From positions 30,905,902-30,969,901 of the forward strand of contig OU452198.1 of the NCBI GenBank assembly GCA_911728435.2: 64,000 nt of DNA, in the 5' to 3' direction. Under the pieces are notes generated by a model. It made no database searches. It had not been told where the DNA came from and worked only from the letters and a program-made list of their open reading frames with translations. Position 1 is the first letter of the stretch, and each line of letters starts with the position of its first letter. The translations under genes and the position numbers were made by a program. This document shows positions 2,694-64,000 of this stretch, piece by piece. The DNA comes from Apoderus coryli. Its lineage: Eukaryota > Arthropoda > Insecta > Coleoptera > Attelabidae.

Positions 2694-5600
2694 ATAATCC
2701 CTTCTTTGCCAAAGATGTAAAATTATTCACATCTGGGTTACCAAAAGAAAGCAGAAATACAGGAACACAGGCTATTGGATTGGTATTGGGTACACTTTTA
2801 GGGGTGGTTTTAATATTTGCTACCATATTTTTCTTGTATTCCACTAGTTTTGAAAGGTACAACAGGTGATAAATTAATTTTACGGGGTAAGTTAAAAGTT
2901 AGAATTGTCTATTTTTAAATTATAGGTTTAGATTGGGCTCGAGACCGATATCAACATACATGGCTCGATATGACAACATACATGATAGAGGTTATATTAT
3001 TGAAAATCAATCTATAATGGGTTCAGTGCTGAGTTTGGACCAATCATTCGAAAATCCAATGTTTGGTGAGGCACTAAGTTTAACACCGAAGCAAACAGAA
3101 GAAAAAACTAAGGTAGTAAAACATAAGCGTTTCTAATTCCACGGAATGGTGGTGATCGAAGTTAGTGGTCGGGGTATTTTTAGTCGTCACATGTTCTATG
3201 ACTCATCGTTAGTATAAATACCAAGTGTTATCTTTTTCGGGTCATTAATCTTTGAACTATCGGCGATCAAGCAATTAAATCGAGAAGAAAAATATAAAGA
3301 CATGTATGGTGGTCCAAATTTTTGGTAGGAGCTACAGAAAAAGTATCCTACATGCACCGAGCTCAAATTTCATAAAATACTGTATGCCGAAAACTGCACA
3401 TCGATATATGAAACTGTTGACAAGATATACAGGGTCGTATTCCATTTTGTGCATTTTTTGACCCACTACCCTAACGTCTCTACCTATAAATATTTTTATG
3501 GCAATTTTTTAAGGGGAAACCCAAAGGTGTTGTTAAATTTTTTTGTAAAAAAATAGTTTTGATGCTATGACATAAACTTGTGCAGTTAAATATCTACAGG
3601 TCTACCAAAAACTACTGCTTGCCGAATTTCTAAAAATCATAAATTTAAGTAGTATATAGAGTGAGAAGAGTTCACAAACTTCGACCACACGACTTACAAT
3701 TCTGGGTCGACTTTCGTCAGTAATTTGGGAACAATTGGCTTGGCAGTCGATGTCCTGTCCATTGGCCGGCAAGATCTCCCGATCTTAGTCCCCTATAGAC
3801 TTTGACCTCTGCTCGGAACATCCTACGACTCCCCCAAACTCATACACCAAAATTTAGCTCAATTGGTTGAAGCGTTTAGGCGCTATCGTGGAAGAATACA
3901 GACACACACACACACACAAAGACAGGCAGACTTCCATCTGGAAATGGTTATATCCGTCCTTATTTCAATTTTTTTAAAGCGTTCACAATACTTTCCCTGT
4001 GCGTTAATGTAAGATCGGTTGTGTCGGCCCAAAACTCTCCCGACAAGATATAATATAATCATAAATATATGACCTGCGTAGCGAAACTGAATTTTAATAA
4101 TAATTATTATTATAATTGTATTATTTATTATTTTCAGTAAACTAACGGCCCAAACTAAATCAAATCAAAAAATGTATTGTTCTTAAAGATTTACAATCTT
4201 ACAACAAAAGGTAAAAAAAAACGTGTTTTCCCTAATATAATGAGAACCAAAATACCCATACCAAAGAAAGGAAATTCTTACACTAGTGATAAAGAGAGTG
4301 AAAAACGAAAAATAAAAGTACTCTTGCCATTTATAAATTAATAGATGAAAGAAATGTATAACAATATTATATCTATAATAGTTAATTCAAAAAAAATAAA
4401 TAAATAAAAAAAGTAAAAGATAACACACCTAGGTAAAGAAAAAATAAGCGTATATCAGCTGCCTATTACAGAAATTAATAATCCTTAAACATTAATAAAA
4501 CATGAAACAAAGTAACAATATAGGGAAACAAATGAACGCAGTTTCAGACACCCAAGAAGAAAATTAGCAATTTTGCGGATGTCCGATAAAGTAGGCTTAT
4601 TTAAAGTTGACACGAATCGTTCAACACTTTGCATTATTGAGACACCACTACGGAGGCCAGAGTACAGTGGACATTCAAAGAGTATGTGGTGAAGTATTTC
4701 ATTGACAAGCATGTTGCACATCGTACAGATGTTATCAGGTTTTATCAAGTAACTAAACTGTTTGTAGGAGAATTTGTAGTAATGAATATTCGTTAACCTA
4801 ATTTGAGCTAAAATCCTTATGTAATGAATTGAGGTATTAAAGTTTAAATAGATTTGAGCAGTGTGAGAAAACGTGAAACAGGAATAAAAGAGAGGCGATC
4901 TAGAATTCTGTACCAGAGACAGATCCTTACTATAACATTCGTTCTGGTATTGCGTAATAATGTCATCTTTAGCTGATTTTAGTGAATGATAAGACAAATT
5001 TTGCCCAAATCTTTGTAACTCCCCATTAAGGAAGCAATGGTTCAACTATTTAAGCCAGTTATATCTGATATCAGCCTCTCCACCTTGCATTAGGTGAAAA
5101 CATCTTAACAAACAAGTCTTGCGGTATCTGCGGCCAGCCATCTTTAGAATCTTCAGCAGCCAGCTTAAAACAAGTTTTAGAACAGTACAAGAAACCGGCA
5201 TTCTTCCGCATAGCATCAGCTGTATTATTTGGGAGTAAAAGTAGCCGTTTAAAGAAACTTGTTTGTACTTTTTCGAAGATATCACAGTATCTCAAACCCC
5301 AAACGGAAACACATGAAGAAAATGAACTCAAAATAATAGAGTCGAATAGCCTGATTTTTGATGCCCAATCACTGGATCTAGAGCGTGAGAGTAAGCTTAA
5401 GACCGCACCAGTTGCTTGTGTGGCCTTAGAAACCGCCGACTCAGCCATAACCCTGAAAACGCCAGTAGAAGAGAAAATAACACCCAGATACCTAAAAGTT
5501 TTCACAACATCAAGTACTGAGCCTTTGTAAACAAAGTTAAGTGAGTTAGTTTGAATATTACTAGCTCTAGAAAAGCACATGACGTTTGTCTTCAATGGAT

Positions 5601-6735
5601 TCAGCTCAAGCTCAATAATTGTATTATATCCCTCCAAAATGCGCAATTTCCTGTTTAAGTCGACCTGACTCTCTCCCAACATTACGAAATCATCGGCATA
5701 CATAAGCAAAAAAATGTCAGTGTGCCCATCAATGTTCAAACCAGAGACACCTCGGCCACGAAAAAAAGCTTCAATACCAGATACAAATAGCGAAAACAGT
5801 AATGGGCTCAAGGGCTCTCCCTGTAGTACGCCAGTTGTTATATCGAGGTCTCGGGAAATGTTATTTCCTGACTTAATTTTAGCGTAGGCTCTGTCGTAAA
5901 TATACTTAAGTAAATTGATGATGGTGGAGCTTATACCAATGGCACGTCACAAACTAACAACTTTATTCAAAAACTCGGAAAAAAAGTATTCCCAGAGCTG
6001 GGATTCGAACCCATTACCTTCCGAATGCTCTATCAATGAAGCCACAAAACCCTCTTTCAAAATATTGTAATAAGGTAAACCTATCTTATTACAATTACAA
6101 CTACCTAACTGGTGAAATTTTAAACGCAATTTTCTTCAGAATTATGGGGGCACATATTGAAAGTAAGCTATTGCTGTAAAGCAGATAAAAAATGCATTAA
6201 AATGATGCATCACTCGACCGCTACTGCTACTGCTATTTGAAAATTTAGCGGTTGTGTCCACCCCTATCACAGGGCTTAACCAAAATACTAATGGGTTCAT
6301 ACTAGGACTCCCCCAAACTCATATAACAAAATTTAGCTCAATGCGTTAAAGCGTTTGGGCGCTATCGTGGAAGAATACACACACACAGACAAACAGACTT
6401 CCTTCTGGGAATGGTTTTAATCGTCTCAGGGAACTTCAAAATGGTTATATCCGTCTTTATCTCAATTTTTTTTGCGCGTTCACAATACTTTCCCTGTGCG
6501 TGAAAATAAGGTTGATAAAAGAGCATCTTCTGAAGACAATTTGTTAAATTTACACTAGTACTTAACCTGCTATAATATTCTACAGGATTCCACTGAGGAA
6601 GTAACGCTAATACCAAGAACTGCTGAAGAAAATGAAGATTTACTAGATCTAAAGTCAAAGCAAGCACACAGTTCCAGTGAAGATACGTTGTCAAGTGGGC
6701 AAAATAGTGACGAAACTGTTCTTGAAAGTTTGTAA
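2694..6735 (+). CDS. 3' exons of a type I membrane protein with FxNPxF signal (amnionless-like candidate)
   Basis: Three exons join in frame: 2694-2865, 2926-3112 and 6586-6735, with GT-AG borders (donors at 2866 and 3113; acceptors AG at 2692, 2924 and 6584) and matching phases. The first exon encodes a short lumenal part and a transmembrane helix (QAIGLVLGTLLGVVLIFATI), followed by a basic juxtamembrane stretch. The second encodes a cytoplasmic tail with SFENPMFGE, an FxNPxF clathrin-adaptor sorting motif. The third is acidic and Ser/Thr-rich and ends VLESL-stop at 6733-6735; AATAAA signals follow near 6820. Amnionless, the cubilin membrane anchor, has a single membrane pass and FxNPxF motifs, so it is a reasonable guess, but the extracellular exons that would prove it are not visible. 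The 3.5-kb last intron is filled with transposon debris. Confidence 0.6.
3590..3800 (+). pseudogene. Tc1/mariner-type transposase remnant
   Basis: Broken frames match the insect transposase family that begins with a DUF4817/HTH domain. One piece reads like GLPKTTACRISKNHKFK (helix-turn-helix plus linker). A second, in another frame, carries the signature of the last catalytic block (PVHWPARSPDL-like, around 3755-3795). The middle of the protein is missing. The same family appears, better preserved, at 29812-31900. It sits inside the last intron of the membrane-protein gene. Confidence 0.6.
3830..4015 (+). repeat. Interspersed repeat with ACAGACAGAC-type tract, copy 1
   Basis: The copy runs from CCCCCAAACTCATA through CGCTATCGTGGAAGAATAC, an (AC)n tract and TTCCATCTGGAAATGG, to GCGTTCACAATACTTTCCC. 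Near-identical arrangements occur at 6300-6515 and 42120-42310. No coding potential is seen. It may be the 3' part of a retroelement, since related tails with ACAGACAGACAG also occur near 27850. Confidence 0.6.
4040..5940 (-). pseudogene. Non-LTR retrotransposon, 5'-truncated (family A, copy 1)
   Basis: On the minus strand the reading frame runs from 5940 to about 4485. The reverse transcriptase part has GVLQGEPLSPLLFSLF and the catalytic MYADDFVML, then thumb residues such as FRYLGVIFSS and SCVSVWGLRYCD. After a frameshift near 5050 the C-terminus carries a cysteine/histidine motif (CTMCNMLVNEILHHILFEC), typical of CR1/Jockey/I-like ORF2 ends. Endonuclease and fingers are missing: the element stops at 5940, directly against a tRNA-derived SINE. 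The 3' end contains a (TTA)n/(ATT)n-like stretch at 4090-4130. It lies in antisense orientation inside the last intron of the membrane-protein gene. Family A also occurs at 33390-34440 and 39830-40207. Confidence 0.8.
5941..6130 (-). repeat. tRNA-derived SINE head, copy 1
   Basis: Read on the minus strand, the repeat has an A-box-like TGGCTTCATTGATAGAGC and a perfect B-box-like GGGTTCGAATCCCAGC (5997-6012 on the plus strand), spaced too closely for a full tRNA. A second copy at 49860-49990 keeps a longer anticodon region. After the tRNA-like part both copies share GGGAATA, a T-run and TTTTTGAATAA. A real tRNA gene is excluded because no acceptor stem forms and the anticodon arm is deleted. 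Confidence 0.7.
6300..6515 (+). repeat. Interspersed repeat with ACAGACAAACAG tract, copy 2
   Basis: It matches the 3830-4015 repeat from CTCCCCCAAACTCATA to CACAATACTTTCCCTGTGCG, with an extra block (ATCGTCTCAGGGAACTTC) that copy 3 at 42120 also has. It lies in the last intron of the membrane-protein gene, ending about 70 bases before the last exon. Confidence 0.6.
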
Positions 6736-13856: not shown

Positions 13857-14506
13857 ATTTTTTCTACGACTGTCTTTAAATGCCTTTATTATATGTTCAA
13901 TCATGATTTGAAAATGTAGTACATTGTAATGTTGTTTTTCATTTACCCGTGCGTAATAATATTTTTCTACGACTGTCTTTAAATACCTTTATTATATGTT
14001 CAATCATGATTTGACAATGTAGTACATTGTAATGCTGTTTATCATTTACCCGTGCGTAATAATATTTCCCACTAGTTGCCTAGCAACTACAGTGGGAAAT
14101 ATTATTACGCACGGATAAAATTTCCTGGTAATGACAAAAGTAGCGGCGGGCACTATAGCAACGCCGAAAATACTCGTACAAACATCAAATTGACAGTTTT
14201 GGTATTTATAATTAATAATAATTATAATTAAGTATTTCGCTAATTTCAAAACACATAAACCGTGATAGTGAATATAGTTTAACACCACCTAGTCAATTTA
14301 ATACTTCTAATTTACCGTATTTGGGCTTATACGCTAACAAGGGTAAGTTTCGAAAAACAAATATTTTCCTAAAAATTATGTTAAATTTATTCAAAAGCAT
14401 TAAAACAGTCGTAGAAAAAGTATAGTGTGAAACTCACATGAAATGACCATTTCCTACTCGTATGATTTGCAAACGATCATACTCGTAGGAAATATATGTC
14501 ATTTCG
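13857..14506. repeat. Tandem 105-base repeats and MITE-like copy with TTTTTCTACGACTG termini
   Basis: Two consecutive units (13857-13961 and 13962-14066) each start TTTTTCTACGACTGTC and end at GTGCGTAATAAT. The second start pairs with CAGTCGTAGAAAAA at 14406-14419 to bound a 458-base MITE-like copy. A hairpin (TTTCCTACTCGTATGATTTGC and its inverse, 14441-14506) lies outside the right terminus, as in the copies at 727 and 16213. Confidence 0.6.
14051..14113. repeat. 63-base near-perfect hairpin
   Basis: A perfect 23-base inverted repeat (14051-14073 with 14091-14113) encloses a second perfect 6-base stem (AGTTGC / GCAACT, 14074-14079 with 14083-14088). Only the CTA tip and two bases (14089-14090) stay unpaired. 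It lies inside the MITE-like copy at 13962-14419. Confidence 0.85.
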
Positions 14507-14639: not shown

Positions 14640-17150
14640 TAATTCATACTATTACATTACATTTATTATAACATCTAGTTATACCTAACTAGTAAATTTA
14701 GAGTTAAATTGGAAAACAATAAAAAAAATAATTGATGTCTACAATACACACATAGCACTATTCTTATTGAAATTCATAAAAATAAAATAAAATTAGAGCC
14801 ATTTGAATTGACAAATTATTAAATGTTTCTTTCAGAGTACGATTTATCACTTTAATCAAAATATTAACATTTGGACTATTTTTTACATTTGCTGGTAATG
14901 TGTTGTACATTCGAATTCCATCATAAAACAAAGTTTTGATAAAAATTCTCTACTGTTAAATTCTATATTATATAAAGTATTTGTTCTTAAGTTTCGGTCA
15001 TGCATGTCCCCACGCTTAGTCAAAAATTGTTGCAAATAGGCGGGAGTTTTATTATGAATTATTTTATACATTAATATAAGATTAGAACGCTCAACACACT
15101 GTTCTACAGACAACTATTTCAAGGTATTCAGCATACATTTGACTGGGGTATAAATATTACAATTCAATAGAATCCTCATTGCTTTATTGTGCAAAATCTG
15201 TAACCGATTTATATCTTGTTTTCTACATGAAATTAATATTGACTGGCAATAATTAAAGTGTGACAGCACTATTGTATTATATAAAACTTTTTTAGTCCAG
15301 TCGGATAGATAAAATGATATTATTCGCATAAAACCTATTTTTTTACCAATTTTCTTACAGATTTTAGCGACATGTACATTAAAGTTCAATTGTGAATCCA
15401 AGGTGACACCCAATTCCATGTCAGGCACTCTATTAATTTTCACATTATTTATTTTAATTTCAAAATTTGAGTTAATGTGCCTTTTACAATTAGCTGCGGT
15501 GCCAAATACCATATATTTGGTCTTGTCATAATTCAATTTAAGTTTGTTTCCGCATAACCAATTCTCAAACAAGTTAACCTCGTCGTTTAGAATATCCACA
15601 GTTTCCCTAAAATCGGTACCAGACATAGAAACGAGGGTATCGTCTGCAAACAGACTGACATATGATTTTTTTTACATCATTTATGTACACTAAGAACAAT
15701 AAAGGACCTAACACACTACCTTGAGGAACCCCATAAGGAGTTATTTACTCTAGTTTTATGATATCTATTCTCTAAATAATTTTGAAGCAATTCTAAATCT
15801 TTCTCTTTAATACCATATGCACTTACTTTTTTTATTAATAAATCACAATCAATCGTTTCCAAAGCCCTCTGTAAATCAACAAAAACACTTATCACTATTT
15901 TATTTTCGATGATCTTTTTCCTCCATACGCCGCACACAAATTGTAAAGGAGTTTCGCAGGAATGTTTACTGCGGAAACCAGATTGACCGTCGAAAAATAT
16001 ATTATTCTTTTCAATAAAATCCTGCAGTTGATCTCGTATCACAACTTCAATAACTTTGTCAATAACTGGTAACATATTGATCGGTCTAAATTGTCCAGGA
16101 GTTGTAGGTGACGTTACTTTTGGAATTGGAATAATTAAACTTGTTTTTAACGCGAAAGGCACTTGACCCGTTCTAATGGTAGTATTAATCATGTTTAACA
16201 ACGCATAACCAGTTACAGAATAGTATATTCTGTAACAAGTGAGGAATGTGGCATATTCTGAACGAGTGGAAATTTGTCACCCGAGCCGACCGGCAAGGGT
16301 GACGGTCCACGAGTTCAGAATAGCTGATTCCTCACGTGTTACAGACTATACTTTTTCTACGACTGCAACTTAATTCTCTAATCTCAGGAGGGGTACAAAT
16401 TATAGCGCTTCTTCGTTAGACATTATATTGAAAAAGTTCTATAACAATTTATATAGGTAGGTACTTTTAAAACTTCAACACCAAGATTATATAATTAATA
16501 ACTTACCTCAATGTGTATAAGTTGATATCTGATAAATAATATAAATAAAGAATTACACATAAGAGACTTTCAAATAATGACATATATGTCAAACAAATTC
16601 CACAATTTGTCGTTCTGTCAAAACTTAAATGTAAACACTTAAAAAAATTTCAATAAGATATTCAATAAGTTATTGTAACAGTTGTTATATAGATTTTAAA
16701 TATATCTGACTCATTTCTAGAGATACGAATATTTATTAATTACGCTAAAACACCGCTGTGTAATTATACATTCCGCTAAAGTTATAGGCAACCCTTAATA
16801 CGTCATTCTGTAACACTATTACGGAATGTTCAATATTCTGTAACAGTTATTGACATCAGAATATCTATATTCTAAAACAGTCGTCGAAAAAAAATATTCT
16901 GTAATACCCGAACACTAAGGCATAAATCATTTGTATTTTTTTGTTTTAAATTATTTACCATTTTTTGTAATTTATTAATACCAATCTCACAAAATTTTAT
17001 CATATAAACATTTTCACCACATACAATATCCGGAACTAGACGTACTTCGATGTTATTCCTAATATCTTCAATGCTTTTCCTATAATACCAACTAAAATTG
17101 TCTTCCGGTGACAAAGATGGATTATTATATAGCTGTGAGTCTTGAATCAC
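14640..17150 (-). pseudogene. Jockey/CR1-like non-LTR retrotransposon, interrupted
   Basis: Minus-strand pieces run in order: 17150-16905 (linker, ending KQKNTNDLCLS), 16205-15716 (fingers and palm: LIIPIPKV, GQFRPINMLPV, QSGFRSKHSCETPLQF, VFVDLQRALETID), 15715-15114 ([13 protein letters not shown], then in a shifted frame [12 protein letters not shown] with an intact FADD box, then KLKLNYDKTKYMVFG and FNYCQSI) and 15113-14883 (C-terminus). It is broken by frameshifts and by a 692-base MITE at 16213-16904. In its palm the usual aromatic-D motif reads RALETID, where most relatives have RAFDTID. Confidence 0.8.
16213..16904. mobile_element. 692-base MITE with TTACAGAATA termini inside a LINE
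   Basis: The ends TTACAGAATA (16213-16222) and TATTCTGTAA (16895-16904) are inverted copies. Inside lie a strong imperfect hairpin (16222-16345, GTGAGGAAT / ATTCCTCAC arms) and the TTTTTCTACGACTG...CAGTCGTCGAAAAA module (16352-16892) shared with the repeats at 727 and 13962. The LINE protein resumes on both sides, which confirms insertion. Flanks TAACCAG and TACCCG are at best an imperfect duplication, so the superfamily is open. Confidence 0.7.
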
Positions 17151-19615: not shown

Positions 19616-19657
19616 GCCACTGATGATGGAAACTTAGTTTTCCGAAACATGTCTGGC
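19616..19657 (+). ncRNA. Hammerhead ribozyme, minimal stem III type
   Basis: The core CTGATGA (19620-19626) is followed by one extra T, stem II GGAAA...TTTCC, then GAAAC (19644-19648), a two-base AT loop and the cleavage triplet GTC (19651-19653). Stem I pairs GCCA with TGGC across the cleavage site. Stem III is only two base pairs (A-U and C-G), as in metazoan type I hammerheads, which often need dimers for full activity. The extra T between the core and stem II recurs in the related copies. Downstream comes the shared tail GGTGGAGTAGACG. Confidence 0.75.
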
Positions 19658-20571: not shown

Positions 20572-20583
20572 TTTGAGTCAAAC
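20572..20583 (+). repeat. 12-base direct repeat flanking the array, left copy
   Basis: TTTGAGTCAAAC occurs here and at 24614-24625, immediately outside the two ends of the 525-base hammerhead array. It behaves as a target-site duplication. At the right side the first three T overlap the repeat's own end, so the exact border is uncertain by three bases. Confidence 0.75.
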
Positions 20584-20705
20584 ATGAAAATAATTTCGTG
20601 GCAAAGCGGACTAAAATGTTGGCTTTACCTACACAAGGAATTTTGTTTAATTTAGCAGGGCCCCAGTCTAATTCGATAGAAACCAGACCGAGGCATGGGT
20701 CGACA

Positions 20706-20753
20706 GGTACTGACGAATTCGTTTCGCTCTTGTTATGAGCTCGTCAGAGCACC
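20706..20753 (-). ncRNA. Type I hammerhead ribozyme (array unit, left arm 1)
   Basis: All eight full-length copies share this sequence. Stem I is GGTGCT with AGTACC, extended by CGAC/GTCG and GGG/CCC beyond small internal loops. The core is CTGACGA. Stem II is GCTC/GAGC with a seven-base ATAACAA loop. Then comes GAA, and stem III ACGA/TCGT closed by a two-base loop. Cleavage is expected after GTC. Every invariant core base of the hammerhead family (CUGANGA, GAA, A15.1-U16.1, NUH) is present. Stems II and III are closed, so stem I is the open helix, making it type I, as usual in animals. Confidence 0.92.
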
Positions 20754-21230
20754 ATAGTCGCTGCCCATCACAAATATCGGCCTGCATTTAAGCACAATAG
20801 GATACACAACAGTAGACACATGTAAACATATATCATCTACATGTACATAGTAATGCATATCCCATACCATGCAGAGGCCGAACAAACTCAATGTATAGGT
20901 AAAACCAGTCGTATAAATAGAAATAAATATAAATAAAAATAGTATGAACACAAAACGCTAGCAGGAGACCATTTTATCCTTCTGCCAGCATCTCCCAAAT
21001 ATTTGGGTTTCAGCAATGCTCGGACGGTGGTCTCCAAGCGTTCTGCCGTCGATGTTTAATGCCAAATAATGAAAAATTAAGAGGATTTCATGTCCGTAAA
21101 TATAATAAATGAAAATAATTTCGTGGCAAAGCGGACTAAAATGTTGGCTTTACCTACACAAGGAATTTTGTTTAATTTAGCAGGGCCCCAGTCTAATTCG
21201 ATAGAAACCAGACCGAGGCATGGGTCGACA

Positions 21231-21278
21231 GGTACTGACGAATTCGTTTCGCTCTTGTTATGAGCTCGTCAGAGCACC
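21231..21278 (-). ncRNA. Type I hammerhead ribozyme (left arm 2)
   Basis: Identical to the copy at 20706-20753 and 525 bases from it. Cleavage is expected between 21237 and 21236 on the minus strand. Confidence 0.92.
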
Positions 21279-21755
21279 ATAGTCGCTGCCCATCACAAAT
21301 ATCGGCCTGCATTTAAGCACAATAGGATACACAACAGTAGACACATGTAAACATATATCATCTACATGTACATAGTAATGCATATCCCATACCATGCAGA
21401 GGCCGAACAAACTCAATGTATAGGTAAAACCAGTCGTATAAATAGAAATAAATATAAATAAAAATAGTATGAACACAAAACGCTAGCAGGAGACCATTTT
21501 ATCCTTCTGCCAGCATCTCCCAAATATTTGGGTTTCAGCAATGCTCGGACGGTGGTCTCCAAGCGTTCTGCCGTCGATGTTTAATGCCAAATAATGAAAA
21601 ATTAAGAGGATTTCATGTCCGTAAATATAATAAATGAAAATAATTTCGTGGCAAAGCGGACTAAAATGTTGGCTTTACCTACACAAGGAATTTTGTTTAA
21701 TTTAGCAGGGCCCCAGTCTAATTCGATAGAAACCAGACCGAGGCATGGGTCGACA

Positions 21756-21803
21756 GGTACTGACGAATTCGTTTCGCTCTTGTTATGAGCTCGTCAGAGC
21801 ACC
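21756..21803 (-). ncRNA. Type I hammerhead ribozyme (left arm 3)
   Basis: Identical to its neighbours at a 525-base period. A transcript through two units would be cut at each copy to release 525-base monomers (inference from the ribozyme family). Confidence 0.92.
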
Positions 21804-22280
21804 ATAGTCGCTGCCCATCACAAATATCGGCCTGCATTTAAGCACAATAGGATACACAACAGTAGACACATGTAAACATATATCATCTACATGTACATAG
21901 TAATGCATATCCCATACCATGCAGAGGCCGAACAAACTCAATGTATAGGTAAAACCAGTCGTATAAATAGAAATAAATATAAATAAAAATAGTATGAACA
22001 CAAAACGCTAGCAGGAGACCATTTTATCCTTCTGCCAGCATCTCCCAAATATTTGGGTTTCAGCAATGCTCGGACGGTGGTCTCCAAGCGTTCTGCCGTC
22101 GATGTTTAATGCCAAATAATGAAAAATTAAGAGGATTTCATGTCCGTAAATATAATAAATGAAAATAATTTCGTGGCAAAGCGGACTAAAATGTTGGCTT
22201 TACCTACACAAGGAATTTTGTTTAATTTAGCAGGGCCCCAGTCTAATTCGATAGAAACCAGACCGAGGCATGGGTCGACA

Positions 22281-22328
22281 GGTACTGACGAATTCGTTTC
22301 GCTCTTGTTATGAGCTCGTCAGAGCACC
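22281..22328 (-). ncRNA. Type I hammerhead ribozyme (left arm 4)
   Basis: Identical to the other left-arm copies, with the same core and stems. Confidence 0.92.
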
Positions 22329-22805
22329 ATAGTCGCTGCCCATCACAAATATCGGCCTGCATTTAAGCACAATAGGATACACAACAGTAGACACATGTAA
22401 ACATATATCATCTACATGTACATAGTAATGCATATCCCATACCATGCAGAGGCCGAACAAACTCAATGTATAGGTAAAACCAGTCGTATAAATAGAAATA
22501 AATATAAATAAAAATAGTATGAACACAAAACGCTAGCAGGAGACCATTTTATCCTTCTGCCAGCATCTCCCAAATATTTGGGTTTCAGCAATGCTCGGAC
22601 GGTGGTCTCCAAGCGTTCTGCCGTCGATGTTTAATGCCAAATAATGAAAAATTAAGAGGATTTCATGTCCGTAAATATAATAAATGAAAATAATTTCGTG
22701 GCAAAGCGGACTAAAATGTTGGCTTTACCTACACAAGGAATTTTGTTTAATTTAGCAGGGCCCCAGTCTAATTCGATAGAAACCAGACCGAGGCATGGGT
22801 CGACA

Positions 22806-22853
22806 GGTACTGACGAATTCGTTTCGCTCTTGTTATGAGCTCGTCAGAGCACC
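22806..22853 (-). ncRNA. Type I hammerhead ribozyme (left arm 5, next to the inversion)
   Basis: The full ribozyme is present, but only 20 further bases of its unit remain before the inversion at 22873. The opposite arm begins with the 3' strand of a hammerhead (CGTCAGTACC, 22875-22884), so the two strands of the palindrome meet inside or beside ribozyme sequence. Confidence 0.9.
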
Positions 22854-23079
22854 ATAGTCGCTGCCCATCACAATCGTCAGTACCTGTCGACCCATGCCTC
22901 GGTCTGGTTTCTATCGAATTAGACTGGGGCCCTGCTAAATTAAACAAAATTCCTTGTGTAGGTAAAGCCAACATTTTAGTCCGCTTTGCCACGAAATTAT
23001 TTTCATTTATTATATTTACGGACATGAAATCCTCTTAATTTTTCATTATTTGGCATTAAACATCGACGGCAGAACGCTT

Positions 23080-23151
23080 GGAGACCACCGTCCGAGCATT
23101 GCTGAAACCCAAATATTTGGGAGATGCTGGCAGAAGGATAAAATGGTCTCC
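23080..23151 (+). ncRNA. Second structured domain in the 525-base unit
   Basis: Three nested stems line up: GGAGACCA with TGGTCTCC (23080-23087/23144-23151), AGCAT with ATGCT (23095-23099/23124-23128) and CCCAAAT with ATTTGGG (23108-23114/23115-23121, an uninterrupted palindrome needing a small opened loop). The only unit difference noticed (A to G near 23649) turns an A-U pair of the middle stem into a G-U pair, so pairing is kept. The role is unknown. The same domain is present in each full unit on both arms. Confidence 0.55.
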
Positions 23152-23163
23152 TGCTAGCGTTTT

Positions 23164-23382
23164 GTGTTCATACTATTTTTATTTATATTTATTTCTATTT
23201 ATACGACTGGTTTTACCTATACATTGAGTTTGTTCGGCCTCTGCATGGTATGGGATATGCATTACTATGTACATGTAGATGATATATGTTTACATGTGTC
23301 TACTGTTGTGTATCCTATTGTGCTTAAATGCAGGCCGATATTTGTGATGGGCAGCGACTATGGTGCTCTGACGAGCTCATAA
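23164..23382 (+). CDS. 72-codon frame in each array unit, doubtful
   Basis: An identical frame (MFILFLFIFISIYTTGFTYT...) occurs in seven units: 20733, 21258, 21783 and 22308 on the minus strand, and 23164, 23689 and 24214 on the plus strand. The start is hydrophobic enough for a membrane or signal segment, but no known family is recognised. Its last codons overlap the hammerhead, so self-cleavage would separate the stop codon from the message. Conservation here simply reflects array homogeneity. I do not regard it as a demonstrated gene. Confidence 0.15.
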   Translation: MFILFLFIFISIYTTGFTYTLSLFGLCMVWDMHYYVHVDDICLHVSTVVYPIVLKCRPIFVMGSDYGALTSS

Positions 23383-23409
23383 CAAGAGCGAAACGAATTC
23401 GTCAGTACC
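23362..23409 (+). ncRNA. Type I hammerhead ribozyme (right arm 1)
   Basis: The plus-strand copy is identical to the left-arm ones. CTGACGA is at 23368-23374, stem II at 23375-23389, GAAAC at 23390-23394, and GTC at 23401-23403 with cleavage expected before A23404. Confidence 0.92.
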
Positions 23410-23886
23410 TGTCGACCCATGCCTCGGTCTGGTTTCTATCGAATTAGACTGGGGCCCTGCTAAATTAAACAAAATTCCTTGTGTAGGTAAAGCCAACATT
23501 TTAGTCCGCTTTGCCACGAAATTATTTTCATTTATTATATTTACGGACATGAAATCCTCTTAATTTTTCATTATTTGGCATTAAACATCGACGGCAGAAC
23601 GCTTGGAGACCACCGTCCGAGCATTGCTGAAACCCAAATATTTGGGAGGTGCTGGCAGAAGGATAAAATGGTCTCCTGCTAGCGTTTTGTGTTCATACTA
23701 TTTTTATTTATATTTATTTCTATTTATACGACTGGTTTTACCTATACATTGAGTTTGTTCGGCCTCTGCATGGTATGGGATATGCATTACTATGTACATG
23801 TAGATGATATATGTTTACATGTGTCTACTGTTGTGTATCCTATTGTGCTTAAATGCAGGCCGATATTTGTGATGGGCAGCGACTAT

Positions 23887-23934
23887 GGTGCTCTGACGAG
23901 CTCATAACAAGAGCGAAACGAATTCGTCAGTACC
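23887..23934 (+). ncRNA. Type I hammerhead ribozyme (right arm 2)
   Basis: Identical to right arm copy 1, 525 bases downstream. Confidence 0.92.
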
Positions 23935-24411
23935 TGTCGACCCATGCCTCGGTCTGGTTTCTATCGAATTAGACTGGGGCCCTGCTAAATTAAACAAAAT
24001 TCCTTGTGTAGGTAAAGCCAACATTTTAGTCCGCTTTGCCACGAAATTATTTTCATTTATTATATTTACGGACATGAAATCCTCTTAATTTTTCATTATT
24101 TGGCATTAAACATCGACGGCAGAACGCTTGGAGACCACCGTCCGAGCATTGCTGAAACCCAAATATTTGGGAGATGCTGGCAGAAGGATAAAATGGTCTC
24201 CTGCTAGCGTTTTGTGTTCATACTATTTTTATTTATATTTATTTCTATTTATACGACTGGTTTTACCTATACATTGAGTTTGTTCGGCCTCTGCATGGTA
24301 TGGGATATGCATTACTATGTACATGTAGATGATATATGTTTACATGTGTCTACTGTTGTGTATCCTATTGTGCTTAAATGCAGGCCGATATTTGTGATGG
24401 GCAGCGACTAT

Positions 24412-24459
24412 GGTGCTCTGACGAGCTCATAACAAGAGCGAAACGAATTCGTCAGTACC
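24412..24459 (+). ncRNA. Type I hammerhead ribozyme (right arm 3, last)
   Basis: Identical to the others. Its unit continues 160 bases past the cleavage site before the array ends at the TTTGAGTCAAAC direct repeat. Confidence 0.92.
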
Positions 24460-24613
24460 TGTCGACCCATGCCTCGGTCTGGTTTCTATCGAATTAGACT
24501 GGGGCCCTGCTAAATTAAACAAAATTCCTTGTGTAGGTAAAGCCAACATTTTAGTCCGCTTTGCCACGAAATTATTTTCATTTATTATATTTACGGACAT
24601 GAAATCCTCTTAA

Positions 24614-24625
24614 TTTGAGTCAAAC
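24614..24625 (+). repeat. 12-base direct repeat flanking the array, right copy
   Basis: TTTGAGTCAAAC, identical to 20572-20583. The site itself is nearly palindromic (TTTGA/TCAAA). Confidence 0.75.
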
Positions 24626-25856: not shown

Positions 25857-25982
25857 AATGGCAGCAGACATGTTTCGATTCTCTAAGGAATTATCTTCAG
25901 TGCTTACATCTGTATTGAAAATAACCTGCATTTAATAAACCAAGTTTGAGTGGATGAACGACAGTTTCATTTGAATCTTTAT
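25857..25982 (-). mobile_element. ~125-base hammerhead-bearing insertion in a transposon arm
   Basis: The left arm reads AACTTATTTA, then this insert, then TTTATTTATGATTC. The right arm (about 32250-32275) is uninterrupted. The bases around the junction (TTATTTA) are repeated at both sides, consistent with a short target duplication. On the minus strand the insert begins AGATTCAAATGAAAC and ends shortly after a hammerhead, a SINE-like layout with a 3'-terminal ribozyme. Confidence 0.65.
25864..25903 (-). ncRNA. Hammerhead ribozyme in the short insertion
   Basis: Minus strand: GCA-CTGAAGA core, a stem II built on ATTC/GAAT, then GAAAC, AT, GTC and TGC pairing back to GCA. N7 is A, which the family allows. 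The junction between core and stem II is slightly irregular (extra TA), so the fold is good but not perfect. Confidence 0.6.
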
Positions 25983-29811: not shown

Positions 29812-31900
29812 ATGAAGATGCTCAGGCTGCCCGCAATCTTTACTTTGACCGCTACCCTGAAAGAAGACAACCTTTTCGCGATTTGTTTTCCCGTTTGCAG
29901 CGAAATCTTCTCACCTACGGTGCGTTTAAAAATCCAAGACCAAGAACATACCAAGCTCGAAATAGGGACAGAGAAGTAGAAGAAATAACTATTTTAGGGG
30001 AAATTTAAAATCGGACAAATCTTTCATTACGTAAAATGCAGTTGAATACAGGTATACCAAAAACTACTGCTTTGCGAATACTGAAAAACAATAAATTCAA
30101 ACCCTATAGAGTGAGAAAGATTCACAAGCTGCAACCAAATGACCCACAATTCAGGCTCGAGTTCTGCCAATGATATTTGAGAAAATCTGCTGATGACAAG
30201 CAGGTTTACGTGTCTTATGGGGAGCATGAACGTGTGGCGGCGGAGCGCAGCTTCAACAATACCTTAAATAATATCTTTGTTTACTGTTCGAACCACGGTT
30301 TGAAAGTTAACCCACTGAAATCTAAAATAATCTACTTTGGTTTAAAACACGACACAAATAAATTAAAGATCGAAATAGATAATAGCAGTGTCCTCTCCTA
30401 CACGGAGGTAAACAACTTGGGCATTACGTTTGATGAAATATTGAGATTCCGAACGCATGTTAACAAAATTGTTCAGAGATCATTTATGACTTTACGGAAC
30501 TTGTTTCGCAGTAGACACTTACTAAATGTTAAATTAAAAAAGCAGCTGTGCGAAAGTTTAGTTTTGAGCCATTGTAATTTTGGAGATGTCATTTATGGTC
30601 CATGTTTAGATAATAAGAGCAGCTATAAAATACAAAAAATCCAAAACTCGTGTGTTCGTTTTGTATTTGGTCTTAGGGCGCCTGACCATGTAAGCGATAA
30701 ATTGAGAGAGCTACGGTGGCTACGAATGACTGAACGTAGAGACTTGCATATCGCTTGCATGGTACACAAGGTATTAACAATGAATTTTCCGTCGTATTTA
30801 AGGAACAAATGTGTACGCGACTCATGACAGACACACAAGATATCGCCACCTCCTGAGTACACCTAAACATAGTACAGCCCTTTTTCAGAGATCTTTTTCA
30901 TATATTGGAGCTCGGTTGTACAATCGGTTGGCAACGTCTCTGAGTTCTTTGGGGACAGCGAGCTTTAGAAAGAAACTCAAGAAATATCTGTTGGATAGAA
31001 GTGGGTAGCAATGGTCGTTGTGAATTTCCTTTGTTGATTTTATTTCGTTTTGATTTTTCTCATTTTCTTGATTTTATTTGTTTTCTGTTTCTTTTTCGCC
31101 TGCGTGGCTAACTGTGTTATTACAATATTTAATTTAGTACAGGTAAATTTTTGGTATGTGACAAATACTTAGAATTTTTTATGACTTCTTATGCACAATG
31201 TAATTTGATATTGTATTTGATTTGTTGTATAAATGCTCGGTTAAAAACAGCTTGCTGAAATTCGCCGAGTTAAAAATAAAGACCATTTATTATTATTATT
31301 ATTATTAATATGGTGAAAACCGGAATGTAGCGCAGAACATTATATGGACTGATCAAGCGTGCATAAGCAGCGCTGGCATTTTCAACAGATACAATTCCTA
31401 CAATTGGACTTTGGAAAATCCACATATTACCATGGAGACACAGAATCAAGGCCGATACAGCAACGATGGGTCGGTATTTTCAGAGGAAGGTTTATTGGTA
31501 TCTATATCTTTGAGGGTAGCCTTACAGCATCGCGATATCTGGAAATATTACGGAAGTTTGTTGATTTATTGATGATTTGCCATTAACGGAAATTGAAAAC
31601 GTATACTTCCACAAGACGCACAGATTATAAGGACATTTTTAAACCAACAATTTGGGCACAATTGACTTGGCAACCGGGGCCCTGTTCATTGGCCAGCAAG
31701 GTCCCCCGATCTAACGCCTCTGGATTTCTACCTTTGGGGAAGAATAAGAAACCACACATATAAGCGAAATCCTGTTTCTCGAGATGCGTTGGAAGCAGCA
31801 GTGCGATATGCTTTTGATTTTATATCTGCGGTAGAATTAATCAATGCTGTTAATCATGTCCAGGAGCGAAGTCAAATAATATGCTTTAATTTAAATGGTA
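29812..31900 (+). pseudogene. DUF4817/Tc1-like transposase split by a LINE
   Basis: Part one (29812-30190) has the N-terminal HTH domain AARNLYFDRYPERRQPFRDL, the RLQRNLLTYGAF linker and, after frameshifts, NTGIPKTTALRILKNNKFKP and LRKSADD. Part two (31309-31900) resumes with NIIWTDQACISS (first catalytic D), ENPHITMETQNQGRYSN and, later, PVHWPARSPDLTPLDFYLWG (third catalytic block). Removing the LINE at 30184-31308 restores the expected order. Multiple stops and frameshifts make it dead. It is the transposase of the 25799-32404 transposon. Confidence 0.8.
30184..31308 (+). pseudogene. CR1/Jockey-like LINE, 5'-truncated at the RT active site
   Basis: It begins at ADD, within what would be the YADD box, then VYVSYGEHERVA, KVNPLKSKIIYFG, NLGITFDEIL, SHCNFGDVIYGP and, after a frameshift near 30815, the C-terminus TALFQRSFSYIGARLYNRL to KKYLLDRSG. 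It ends in a (TTA)n tail at 31287-31308, the hallmark of this LINE group. It is inserted in sense orientation in the transposase gene. Confidence 0.8.
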
Positions 31901-61093: not shown

Positions 61094-62290
61094 TTATATT
61101 ATTCTCTCTTTTAAACAATGCTTGAACATGTCCAACGACAAACCCAGCAAATCACCGAAATCATGCTTCAGATGTGCAGCCATGTAGGCAAAACACCTCT
61201 CGAACCTAGAAGTTGTATGCTGAGGAACAGTAAACGAGTCTTTACGTATCTGGTGCACCTCAGACCTTCTCACAAGTAAATCATATAGATACGTTGGTGT
61301 TTGAGAGGCGTAAACTTTATATAGCATCACTGTGTATAAAAATCTGACTCTACAAGGTATTTTGAGTTCTCCAAGCATATTTATGTATGGCGTAATATGT
61401 GCGCGATAGGGAACTTTACATATGAACCGAATGCAAGCATTCTGCACTCTTTGCAATTTATCTTTGTTGTAATTAGGCAAAAAATGATAGTAAACAGGAG
61501 AGCAGTATTTAATATGAGGATAAATTAGTGACTTGATTAATTTCGACTTAGTCGATTCGTCCAGCAAACCCCTCAGATGGAAAATCGAGCTAAGTCTATA
61601 GAAACAGTTCCTATATGATCGTTAAAGCTCAATCTATCATCTACAATCACACCAAGATTCTTAGATTTCTGCACCCACTCAACGTTGACATGGTCGATAT
61701 AAATCCTATAGTTACCTGTTATACATATTTTGTGTCTCTCACCGCCCACGCACAATGCAACTGACTTTTTGGGGTTGATTTTTAAGCCGTTAACAATACA
61801 CAAACCTGAAAAAGCCTCCAAATCAGTGTTCACGGCTGCCATAGCCCAATCTGAGTCTTTAATAGAAAAAGACTTATAGAGTTGAATGTCGGCAGCATAC
61901 ATATGATAGTTAGTAAAACTGAAACTTACATCGAATGTACATATAGAAAAGAGAAGTGGGCCCAGTATGCTACCTTGAGGGACTCCACACTCCAAAATCA
62001 GAAAGGATAGAGCCGCTCAACTTAACTCTTTGTTTTCTATCAAAAAGATAACTTTTGAACCAATTCAAGGAGGAATCGACAAAGCTCAGGTATTTCAGCT
62101 TTGCCAGAAGTAATTGAAAATACACAGAGTCAAATGCTTTGCTCTGATCAAGCAAAAGTAGTACGCTTACCTGTGACTTATCAAGGGATTGTGCCAGATC
62201 GTTTGTGACCTTAAGCAACGCTGTCCAGGTGCTATTTTTTTTTCGAAAACCAGATTGTTCCACAGATATTTAGCAATTTTGTATTTGATC
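61094..62290 (-). pseudogene. CR1/Jockey-like LINE with a mutated RT active site
   Basis: Minus-strand blocks: VEQSGFRKKNSTWTALLKV, VLLLLDQSKAFDSVYF (first catalytic D), NWFKSYLFDRKQRVKLSG; then, after a frameshift near 61990, GVPQGSILGPLLFSI, HMYAADIQLY, GLKINPKKSVALCVGG, NLGVIVDDRLSFNDHI; then LIYPHIKYCSPVYYHFLPN and FERCFAYMAAHLK to the end at 61094. The usual YADD reads YAAD (GCC at 61893-61891), so the first of the paired aspartates is lost. Endonuclease and ORF1 are absent. A (TTTA)n-like tail follows at the left. Confidence 0.8.
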
Positions 62291-62939: not shown

Positions 62940-64000
62940 ATATAATAAACTGTTGCACTCGAGGCACGAATAGCTCTCCATATTTAAGTGTAAAGTAATA
63001 ATTTTATGACCTTTTTGTCATTTATCTAAAATTTATATATTTTTTTTTGTTTTAGCCATCATCTATCTTTTTTTTTGAAGTATTGGGTTTTGTTCCTTTT
63101 TCTTCTCTTTGGAGTCACTATTTATACGTACATATTTTATATTTCAGATCTTCTAGGCCAAGTTCTTGTACGCAATATAGTTGATTTTTTTTTAGTTTTA
63201 TTATAAAATTTATTTTCCCCCTTTTCTACTATTTACGAACGCCTATGTAAACAAAATTGTTATGCTGCATGTTGTAGGTTATCTTATATCAAAGCTATAT
63301 ATAATTAGCTAATTTTTCGTTTTTGACCCTTTTTTACACTATTTTCGAACACCCGTGTGAACCAGTTCATTTATGTAACATTTTTTATGTTATTCTATCA
63401 CAACTATGAAAAATTATTCCGTATTTCGAATAAGTTTAGGAAGTATATATTTTTTTTATTTTGACCCCTTTTACACTATTTACGAACGCCTATGAAAACA
63501 AGTTATTTATAACATATTTTATAGCTTATATTCTATCAAAGCTATAAATAACTAGTCAATATTTCTGCTATTTTTAAGAAATACGTTTTTTTCTAACCTT
63601 TTTACCCCATTTTACACTTTTTTCAAATGTCAATGTGGTCTAATTGTTTAGGTTAAATATTTTAGGTTATATTTAATTAAACGCACAAAAAATTATTCAA
63701 TATTTCGGATAAGTTTAAGAATTATGATTTTTTAAATTTTTGACCCCTCTTTTATACCCCTTGCCTACGCTCAATGTTAATCACCACCTATAAATATCCT
63801 ATAGTATTTTCGTACCAAATGTGGTTAAAATCCGTTAAAAAGTGGTTTTTGAGTTATATTTAATTAAACACACACAAAATTTATCAATTTTTCGGATAAG
63901 TTTAAGAACTATGATTTTTTTAATTTTTGAATCCTCTTTTAAACCCCTTGCCTACGCTCCATGTTAATCACCACCTACAAATATCCTATAGTATTTCCGT
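62940..64000 (+). repeat. Degenerate tandem repeat, running off the window
   Basis: At least six diverged units start with TTTGACCCCTTTTACACTAT-like sequence (about 63218, 63323, 63460, 63597, 63742 and 63928), followed by TACGAACGCCTATG and TATCAAAGCTATAAATA, then TATTTCGGATAAGTTTA. Spacing varies from about 105 to 185 bases. A lone copy sits at 18300-18420. It resembles an old satellite or the body of a long repeat. AAATGTGGTTAAAATCCGTT near 63820 resembles the tail-type motif at 27800. Confidence 0.65.

Follow-up and report, generated by a model that had tools for sequence, protein, structure and literature searches.

The 64,000-nt stretch of the Apoderus coryli (Coleoptera, Attelabidae) genome analysed here (assembly GCA_911728435.2, contig OU452198.1, forward-strand positions 30,905,902–30,969,901; hereafter the window) contains at 20584–24613 an array of 525-base units, each with a hammerhead ribozyme (HHR), which very probably represents a non-coding metazoan-type retrozyme inserted by the machinery of Penelope-like elements (PLEs). 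A sequence-only reading of the window had given these array coordinates, which were correct, and had called the array retrozyme-like or a satellite. The first term is supported by dispersed insertions with target-site duplications (TSDs), an HHR in every unit and uniformity within insertions, while the second is not supported, each array compared being a separate insertion whose ends are fixed. That reading overlooked both the inversion and the TSD, which reveal the insertion mechanism. No long frame was found within 20584–24613 (frames of at least 110 aa considered), and the element is therefore not a PLE; it is PLE-like in its insertions only.

An inverted-repeat comparison of the window resolved the array into two head-to-head arms, minus strand first and plus strand second. 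The single uniform tandem array described earlier was thus replaced by five HHRs on the minus strand (20584–22873) and three on the plus strand (22874–24613), and the exact 525-base spacing held inside each arm but not across the step between the arms. The arms were 100% complementary in the stretches paired by the repeat search, and a single variant was present among all units, at unit position 246 in one right-arm unit. A 12-base direct repeat, TTTGAGTCAAAC, lay directly outside both array ends. Unit numbering begins at the predicted HHR cut, placed by the known hammerhead rule, and A and B denote the two unit sites at which outer ends lie; the right-arm outer end falls at unit position 163 if three bases common with the TSD are counted. 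The window array reads as a single insertion event, not as a head-to-tail satellite block. Tandem Repeats Finder did not list it, the longest period reported for the window being 500. The layout was as follows:

20572..20583, left TSD copy, 12 bp, TTTGAGTCAAAC
20584..22873, left arm, about 4.36 units, HHR on the minus strand, outer end at site A, unit position 128
22873..22874, head-to-head junction of the inner arm ends, at unit positions 464 and 521, neither overlap nor filler
22874..24613, right arm, about 3.32 units, HHR on the plus strand, outer end at site B, unit position 160
24614..24625, right TSD copy, 12 bp, TTTGAGTCAAAC

The HHR motif, GGTGCT-CTGACGA-GCTC-ATAACAA-GAGC-GAA-ACG-AATT-CGT-C-AGTACC, has the full core, with six pairs in stem I (including one G-T), four in stem II and three in stem III, which is closed by AATT. 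A descriptor search assigned it the type I topology and gave exactly eight matches in the window on both strands, compared with one match on both strands of 2.56 Mb of first-order Markov sequence; together with the repeat analysis, this upheld the earlier report of eight full motifs with an intact core and three stems. The same pattern gave no match in a viral contig set. The following positions rest on the descriptor and a permissive Rfam search:

20706..20753, minus strand, type I HHR motif 1
21231..21278, minus strand, type I HHR motif 2
21756..21803, minus strand, type I HHR motif 3
22281..22328, minus strand, type I HHR motif 4
22806..22853, minus strand, type I HHR motif 5
23362..23409, plus strand, type I HHR motif 6, predicted cut between 23403 and 23404
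23887..23934, plus strand, type I HHR motif 7
24412..24459, plus strand, type I HHR motif 8

We then searched the 428-Mb genome (129 contigs) with one unit as the query. The search reported 252 matches, with the best 40 of 1516 first-look candidates scored, and from the matches listed we assembled 40 loci, namely the window locus and 39 others, whose blocks were mapped onto the unit. Exactly two arms, minus then plus, were found in 36 of the 40, the sense 3' ends facing outward. TSDs of 12–15 bp flanked 34 of the 36 two-armed loci; for L067 too little flank was retrieved for a TSD to be judged. An assembly artefact of inverted repeats might be suspected, as long inverted repeats are an assembly hazard and the arms were read from the assembly, but junctions, variants and TSDs differ at dozens of loci on many contigs, and we consider this explanation negligible. 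In a separate observation, the flanks of L031 and L032 (contigs C108 and C24) were similar, as if both had struck copies of another repeat.

The outer ends of these insertions follow a strict rule. Before trimming of the TSD overlap, 35 of the 36 two-armed loci had one outer end at unit positions 126–134 (site A) and the other at 160–176 (site B). The combinations were A left with B right in 14 and B left with A right in 21, with no A/A and no B/B; by simple arithmetic, independent choice of ends would give 35 A/B loci with a chance of 0.5^35. In the 34 loci whose TSD reached 12 bp or more, trimmed A ends lay at 125–131 (mean 128.0) and trimmed B ends at 156–176 (mean 161.1), and the mean A-to-B distance was 33.1 nt. 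The target consensus was AAN-TSD-NTT, the second base beyond the cut being T in 30 of the 34 A-primed ends and likewise in 30 of the 34 B-primed ends. The primer end matched the RNA over a mean of 2.03 nt, versus 0.68 nt when TSDs were shuffled among loci; the observed mean was reached in 0 of 2000 shuffles. The retrozyme insertions therefore carry the PLE integration signature, with ends at two adjacent sites 30–40 nt apart and inverted head-to-head copies within a TSD. In the window, the stretch between the inferred cDNA start sites is the counterpart of the PLE 'tail':

23531..23564, plus strand, stretch between sites A (unit position 128) and B (unit position 161), from the mean end positions of 34 loci

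This end rule bears on three other explanations. In a fold-back or self-priming scheme, of the kind discussed for rotifer Penelope (PMC3846280), one cDNA would fold back and copy itself into an inverted arm, which would account for the head-to-head arms; the copied arm should, however, repeat the outer end as A/A or B/B, seen in 0 of 36 loci, and the join would be expected near a palindrome whereas the inner ends lie at unrelated unit positions, making this scheme highly improbable. An origin as ordinary satellite DNA that expanded by unequal crossing-over and happens to contain an HHR would explain the tandem 525-base units, but not the short dispersed insertions, TSDs, fixed outer ends and inverted arms; the element does not form the long head-to-tail arrays without TSD that characterize satellites, and we attach practically no weight to this origin. 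The third is a long interspersed nuclear element (LINE) reverse transcriptase acting by L1-like twin priming, which likewise yields inverted 5' parts and TSDs. Frames that by eye resemble reverse transcriptase pieces from other retroelements lie in the window at 5071–5946 (−), 15114–16276 (−), 30174–30827 (+) and 61094–62016 (−). With twin priming the two outer ends would not be held at set sites 33 nt apart, as found in 35 of 36 loci, and the same ends occur in the GIY-YIG elements of this genome, so that we regard a LINE as a very unlikely source.

Resident PLEs were found by a genome search for GIY-YIG (PF01541), with 150 matches listed, the best 150 of 1260 candidates. Neighbouring GIY-YIG pairs at most 10 kb apart numbered 19 among the matches listed, and all 19 were in minus-plus order. 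Two pairs, C1 and C14, were read at their ends (1.5 kb and 182 bases per end, respectively). The C1 arms were identical across 393 nt, a stretch holding the frame end, the stop, a minimal HHR and the insertion end, with CCAAT- and TATA-like boxes seen by eye. One arm was longer by 33 nt, the left in C1 and the right in C14, and the TSDs of the two pairs were 12 and 13–14 bp. A 211-base probe over the PLE end region gave 42 matches, with the best 40 of 1371 candidates scored; 36 ended at probe position 206–211 and 6 at 172–175, a ratio that carries no meaning because the scoring favours long ends. Five PLE pairs among these matches, C1 included, were all in minus-plus order, each with a short end and a long end. 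With C14 as the sixth, each of the six resolvable PLE pairs had an A end and a B end separated by about 33 nt. The A/B rule, 33-nt offset, TSD size and head-to-head layout common to the retrozyme and the resident PLEs constitute structural evidence for a PLE helper. Pfam confirmed two older GIY-YIG fragments, and just upstream of one of them a YVDD reverse-transcriptase motif was seen by eye. The sole protein homologue returned for a PLE fragment was from the ladybird Coccinella septempunctata at 29% identity.

Published PLE biochemistry agrees with this picture. The purified Anolis PLE protein is reported to cleave and extend both strands in vitro and to start reverse transcription at two neighbouring sites within the RNA that correspond to the genomic tail (PMC11167929). 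The start site did not differ between strands in that system (PMC11167929), and the strict one-A-one-B rule goes beyond this result. Rotifer Penelope copies are described with inverted pseudo-long terminal repeats (pLTRs), TSDs of 8–10 bp and an optional 31-bp tail (PMC3846280).

Several observations weigh against a retrozyme inserted by PLE machinery, or against the generality of the end rule. The loci compared, being the best-scoring 40 of 1516 candidates, are young copies. Three loci (L031, L036 and L053) were one-armed, all ending at B, L036 still with a 13-bp TSD; L038 was complex or rearranged; and L060 broke the end rule with a left end at 408 and no TSD. The C1 pair had four extra bases at one end and, by eye, the target motif fitted C14 at both cuts and C1 at neither. 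The retrozyme and the PLE 3' region showed no sequence similarity (best E 0.19), and the distance from the HHR to site A was about 128 nt in the retrozyme versus 49 in the PLE. Given this lack of similarity, the resident PLE family is not necessarily the helper: the RNA may be recognized by its structure, or insertion may depend on a different PLE family. As for the ribozyme, Rfam gave no match in the window at the gathering threshold, and the covariance search that the sequence-only reading had proposed returned Hammerhead_HH9 at all eight places only under permissive settings, at 20.6 bits (E 0.13) against a gathering score of 52; it was the sole hammerhead family listed, and the support that Rfam lends the motif is thus weak. 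MicroRNA and archaeal small RNA rows of the same search (E 2.7–9.8) were taken as chance. The lone 48-mer was predicted to prefer another fold (−15.3 versus −10.1 kcal/mol for the hammerhead), in which the core pairs with the cut region, and a double hammerhead from two strands was predicted at −32.0 versus −35.2 for the best cofold.

In view of this folding preference of the isolated HHR, dimeric action is the more plausible expectation, by analogy with amphibian HHRs, which share the short helix III and palindromic loop of the unit here and are reported to be active as dimers (PMC7229834). The cutting of the RNA into 525-nt pieces, also proposed in the sequence-only reading, and the circularity of these pieces are, like the enzyme, what we infer for this element.

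The arms themselves inform on the template. Of 72 arms, 52 were longer than one unit, the longest being 4691 nt, and the positions of the 72 inner ends in the unit were compatible with a uniform distribution (Kolmogorov–Smirnov P 0.43). We considered and dropped an accumulation of inner ends at the HHR cut: 10 of 70 lay in a 27-nt stretch across the cut versus 3.6 expected, a stretch picked after inspection, and a scan across all positions gave P 0.27 (L063 left out). Variants were tallied at positions covered in both arms and by at least three units, with L038 and L063 excluded as rearranged. Among 55 variant calls, 41 were confined to a single unit, 12 were shared by all units of the two arms, 2 were missing from just one unit and none was at intermediate frequency; these are calls rather than events, six of the 41 adjoining within one unit of L058. 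Fixed variants included 115G>A (all 14 units of L061), 454A>G (all 8 units of L062) and an inserted A (all 7 units of L067), and 5 of the 12 were 408A>G in five separate insertions, which may mark a subfamily. A mutation arises in one unit, and its presence in all units of both arms is as copying of a monomer-length circle predicts; the variant pattern thus points to such a circle as the template.

The main alternative to a circle is that the same PLE machinery copied a long linear multimeric transcript, the units being alike because the parent array was already uniform. Arms several units long and nearly uniform parent arrays would fit, and a published PLE inserts in vitro without need of a ribozyme, with unprocessed RNA as its main substrate (PMC11167929). 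The 41 single-unit calls should nevertheless yield intermediate patterns in daughter insertions, where none was seen, and there was no significant run-off at the HHR cut; we therefore judge a linear template unlikely, though less so than any of the other alternatives.

Several smaller features of the arms were also recorded. Six of 70 inner ends lay at unit 362–368, perhaps a weak pause site, although a 10-nt scan across all positions was not significant (P 0.35). The inner-junction filler at 1589–1603 of L051, GATGGGCAGCGACAG, is a near-repeat of the unit sequence immediately upstream of the HHR, and that at 4837–4855 of L061 is a 19-base AT run, hinting at template jumping during joining. 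Small expansions near unit 295–302, an AT-rich run, occurred in single units of L048 (2211–2236) and L032.

These results can be assembled into the following insertion pathway. The genomic array would be transcribed and its HHRs, probably as dimers, would cut the RNA into 525-nt monomers, which a host ligase would close into circles. A PLE reverse transcriptase with a GIY-YIG endonuclease, probably a dimer, would bind one circle, as the variants common to both arms suggest. The enzyme would cut the target, AAN-12 bp-NTT as read from the TSDs and motif, on both strands to leave 3' overhangs of about 12 nt. Each target 3' end would prime its own cDNA with 0–5 nt of matching bases, one at A and one at B as the observed ends indicate, 33 nt apart. 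Each cDNA, from 77 nt up to about nine turns judging from the arm lengths, would be made by circling the template. The inner ends would be joined at unrelated unit positions with a short overlap or filler, giving the two head-to-head arrays within a TSD that are seen at the loci.

In its full form, which we hold to be about as probable as not, this amounts to bidirectional integration on one RNA: a PLE dimer would hold a single ribozyme-made circle, each cut target strand would be extended from a start site reserved for it, the two strands never sharing a site, and two polymerases would run round the circle until host repair joined the products. If true, this would be a distinct mode of retrotransposition that accounts for the PLE tail and the inverted copies, and the ribozyme would be a device turning a short RNA into an endless template. 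The insertions also preserve, in a natural setting, the apparent products of many turns of copying round a circular RNA, and the rule that each target strand uses a different start site is directly testable with purified PLE protein.

Among known systems, the HHR satellites of newts, schistosomes and cave crickets consist of tandem units with a type I HHR in satellite blocks, whereas the present element forms discrete TSD-flanked insertions. PLEs encode their own enzyme (a telomerase-like reverse transcriptase, with GIY-YIG in endonuclease-bearing (EN+) PLEs) and carry a minimal HHR, whereas this element is non-coding and short, with a fuller HHR and arms often longer than one unit. It resembles GIY-YIG PLEs in the head-to-head inverted copies, the one-sided tail of 30–40 nt, the TSD, the HHR upstream of the start sites and the presumed cutting and extension of both strands (PMC11167929, PMC3846280). 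With metazoan non-LTR retrozymes (LTR, long terminal repeat; Cervera and de la Pena 2020, PMC7229834), a paper that also names the three satellites, it shares a build of tandem non-coding units that each carry one type I HHR, as well as a low GC content, TSDs of more than 4 bp and a short helix III. It differs in its inverted two-armed insertions with A/B ends, the words 'inverted' and 'tail' being absent from the main text of that paper, and in its 525-nt unit, as the published RNAs are about 170–400 nt (PMC7229834), a range that is a description rather than a definition. Plant LTR retrozymes are likewise non-coding HHR-bearing retroelements thought to move via circular RNA (PMC7761336), but have a type III HHR, LTRs, a 4-bp TSD and a proposed Ty3-Gypsy machinery, in contrast to the type I HHR and 12–15-bp TSD found here.

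The link between retrozymes and PLEs was itself proposed earlier: a 2020 review states that no conserved motif in metazoan retrozymes allows their helper to be recognized, and considers PLEs and Terminons likely candidates on account of the shared HHR and co-occurrence (PMC7761336). What the insertion sites add is direct structural evidence, in one genome, linking a retrozyme to PLE machinery, and this mechanistic signature is of wider interest than the element itself. Inverted, A/B-paired insertions of a metazoan retrozyme were not described in the literature searched, outside which lay most subscription papers and all preprints; they and the unit length, which exceeds that published for animal retrozymes, are the novel traits of this element.

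Elsewhere in the window, dispersed CTGANGA...CGAAAC motifs with a very short third stem, which by eye resemble the minimal HHRs of PLEs, were seen at 19620, 25198, 36720, 47225 and 50371 on the plus strand and at 25900 and 47174 on the minus strand. Tandem Repeats Finder reported other tandem repeats at 13859–14067 and 63321–63622, with periods of 103 and 138.

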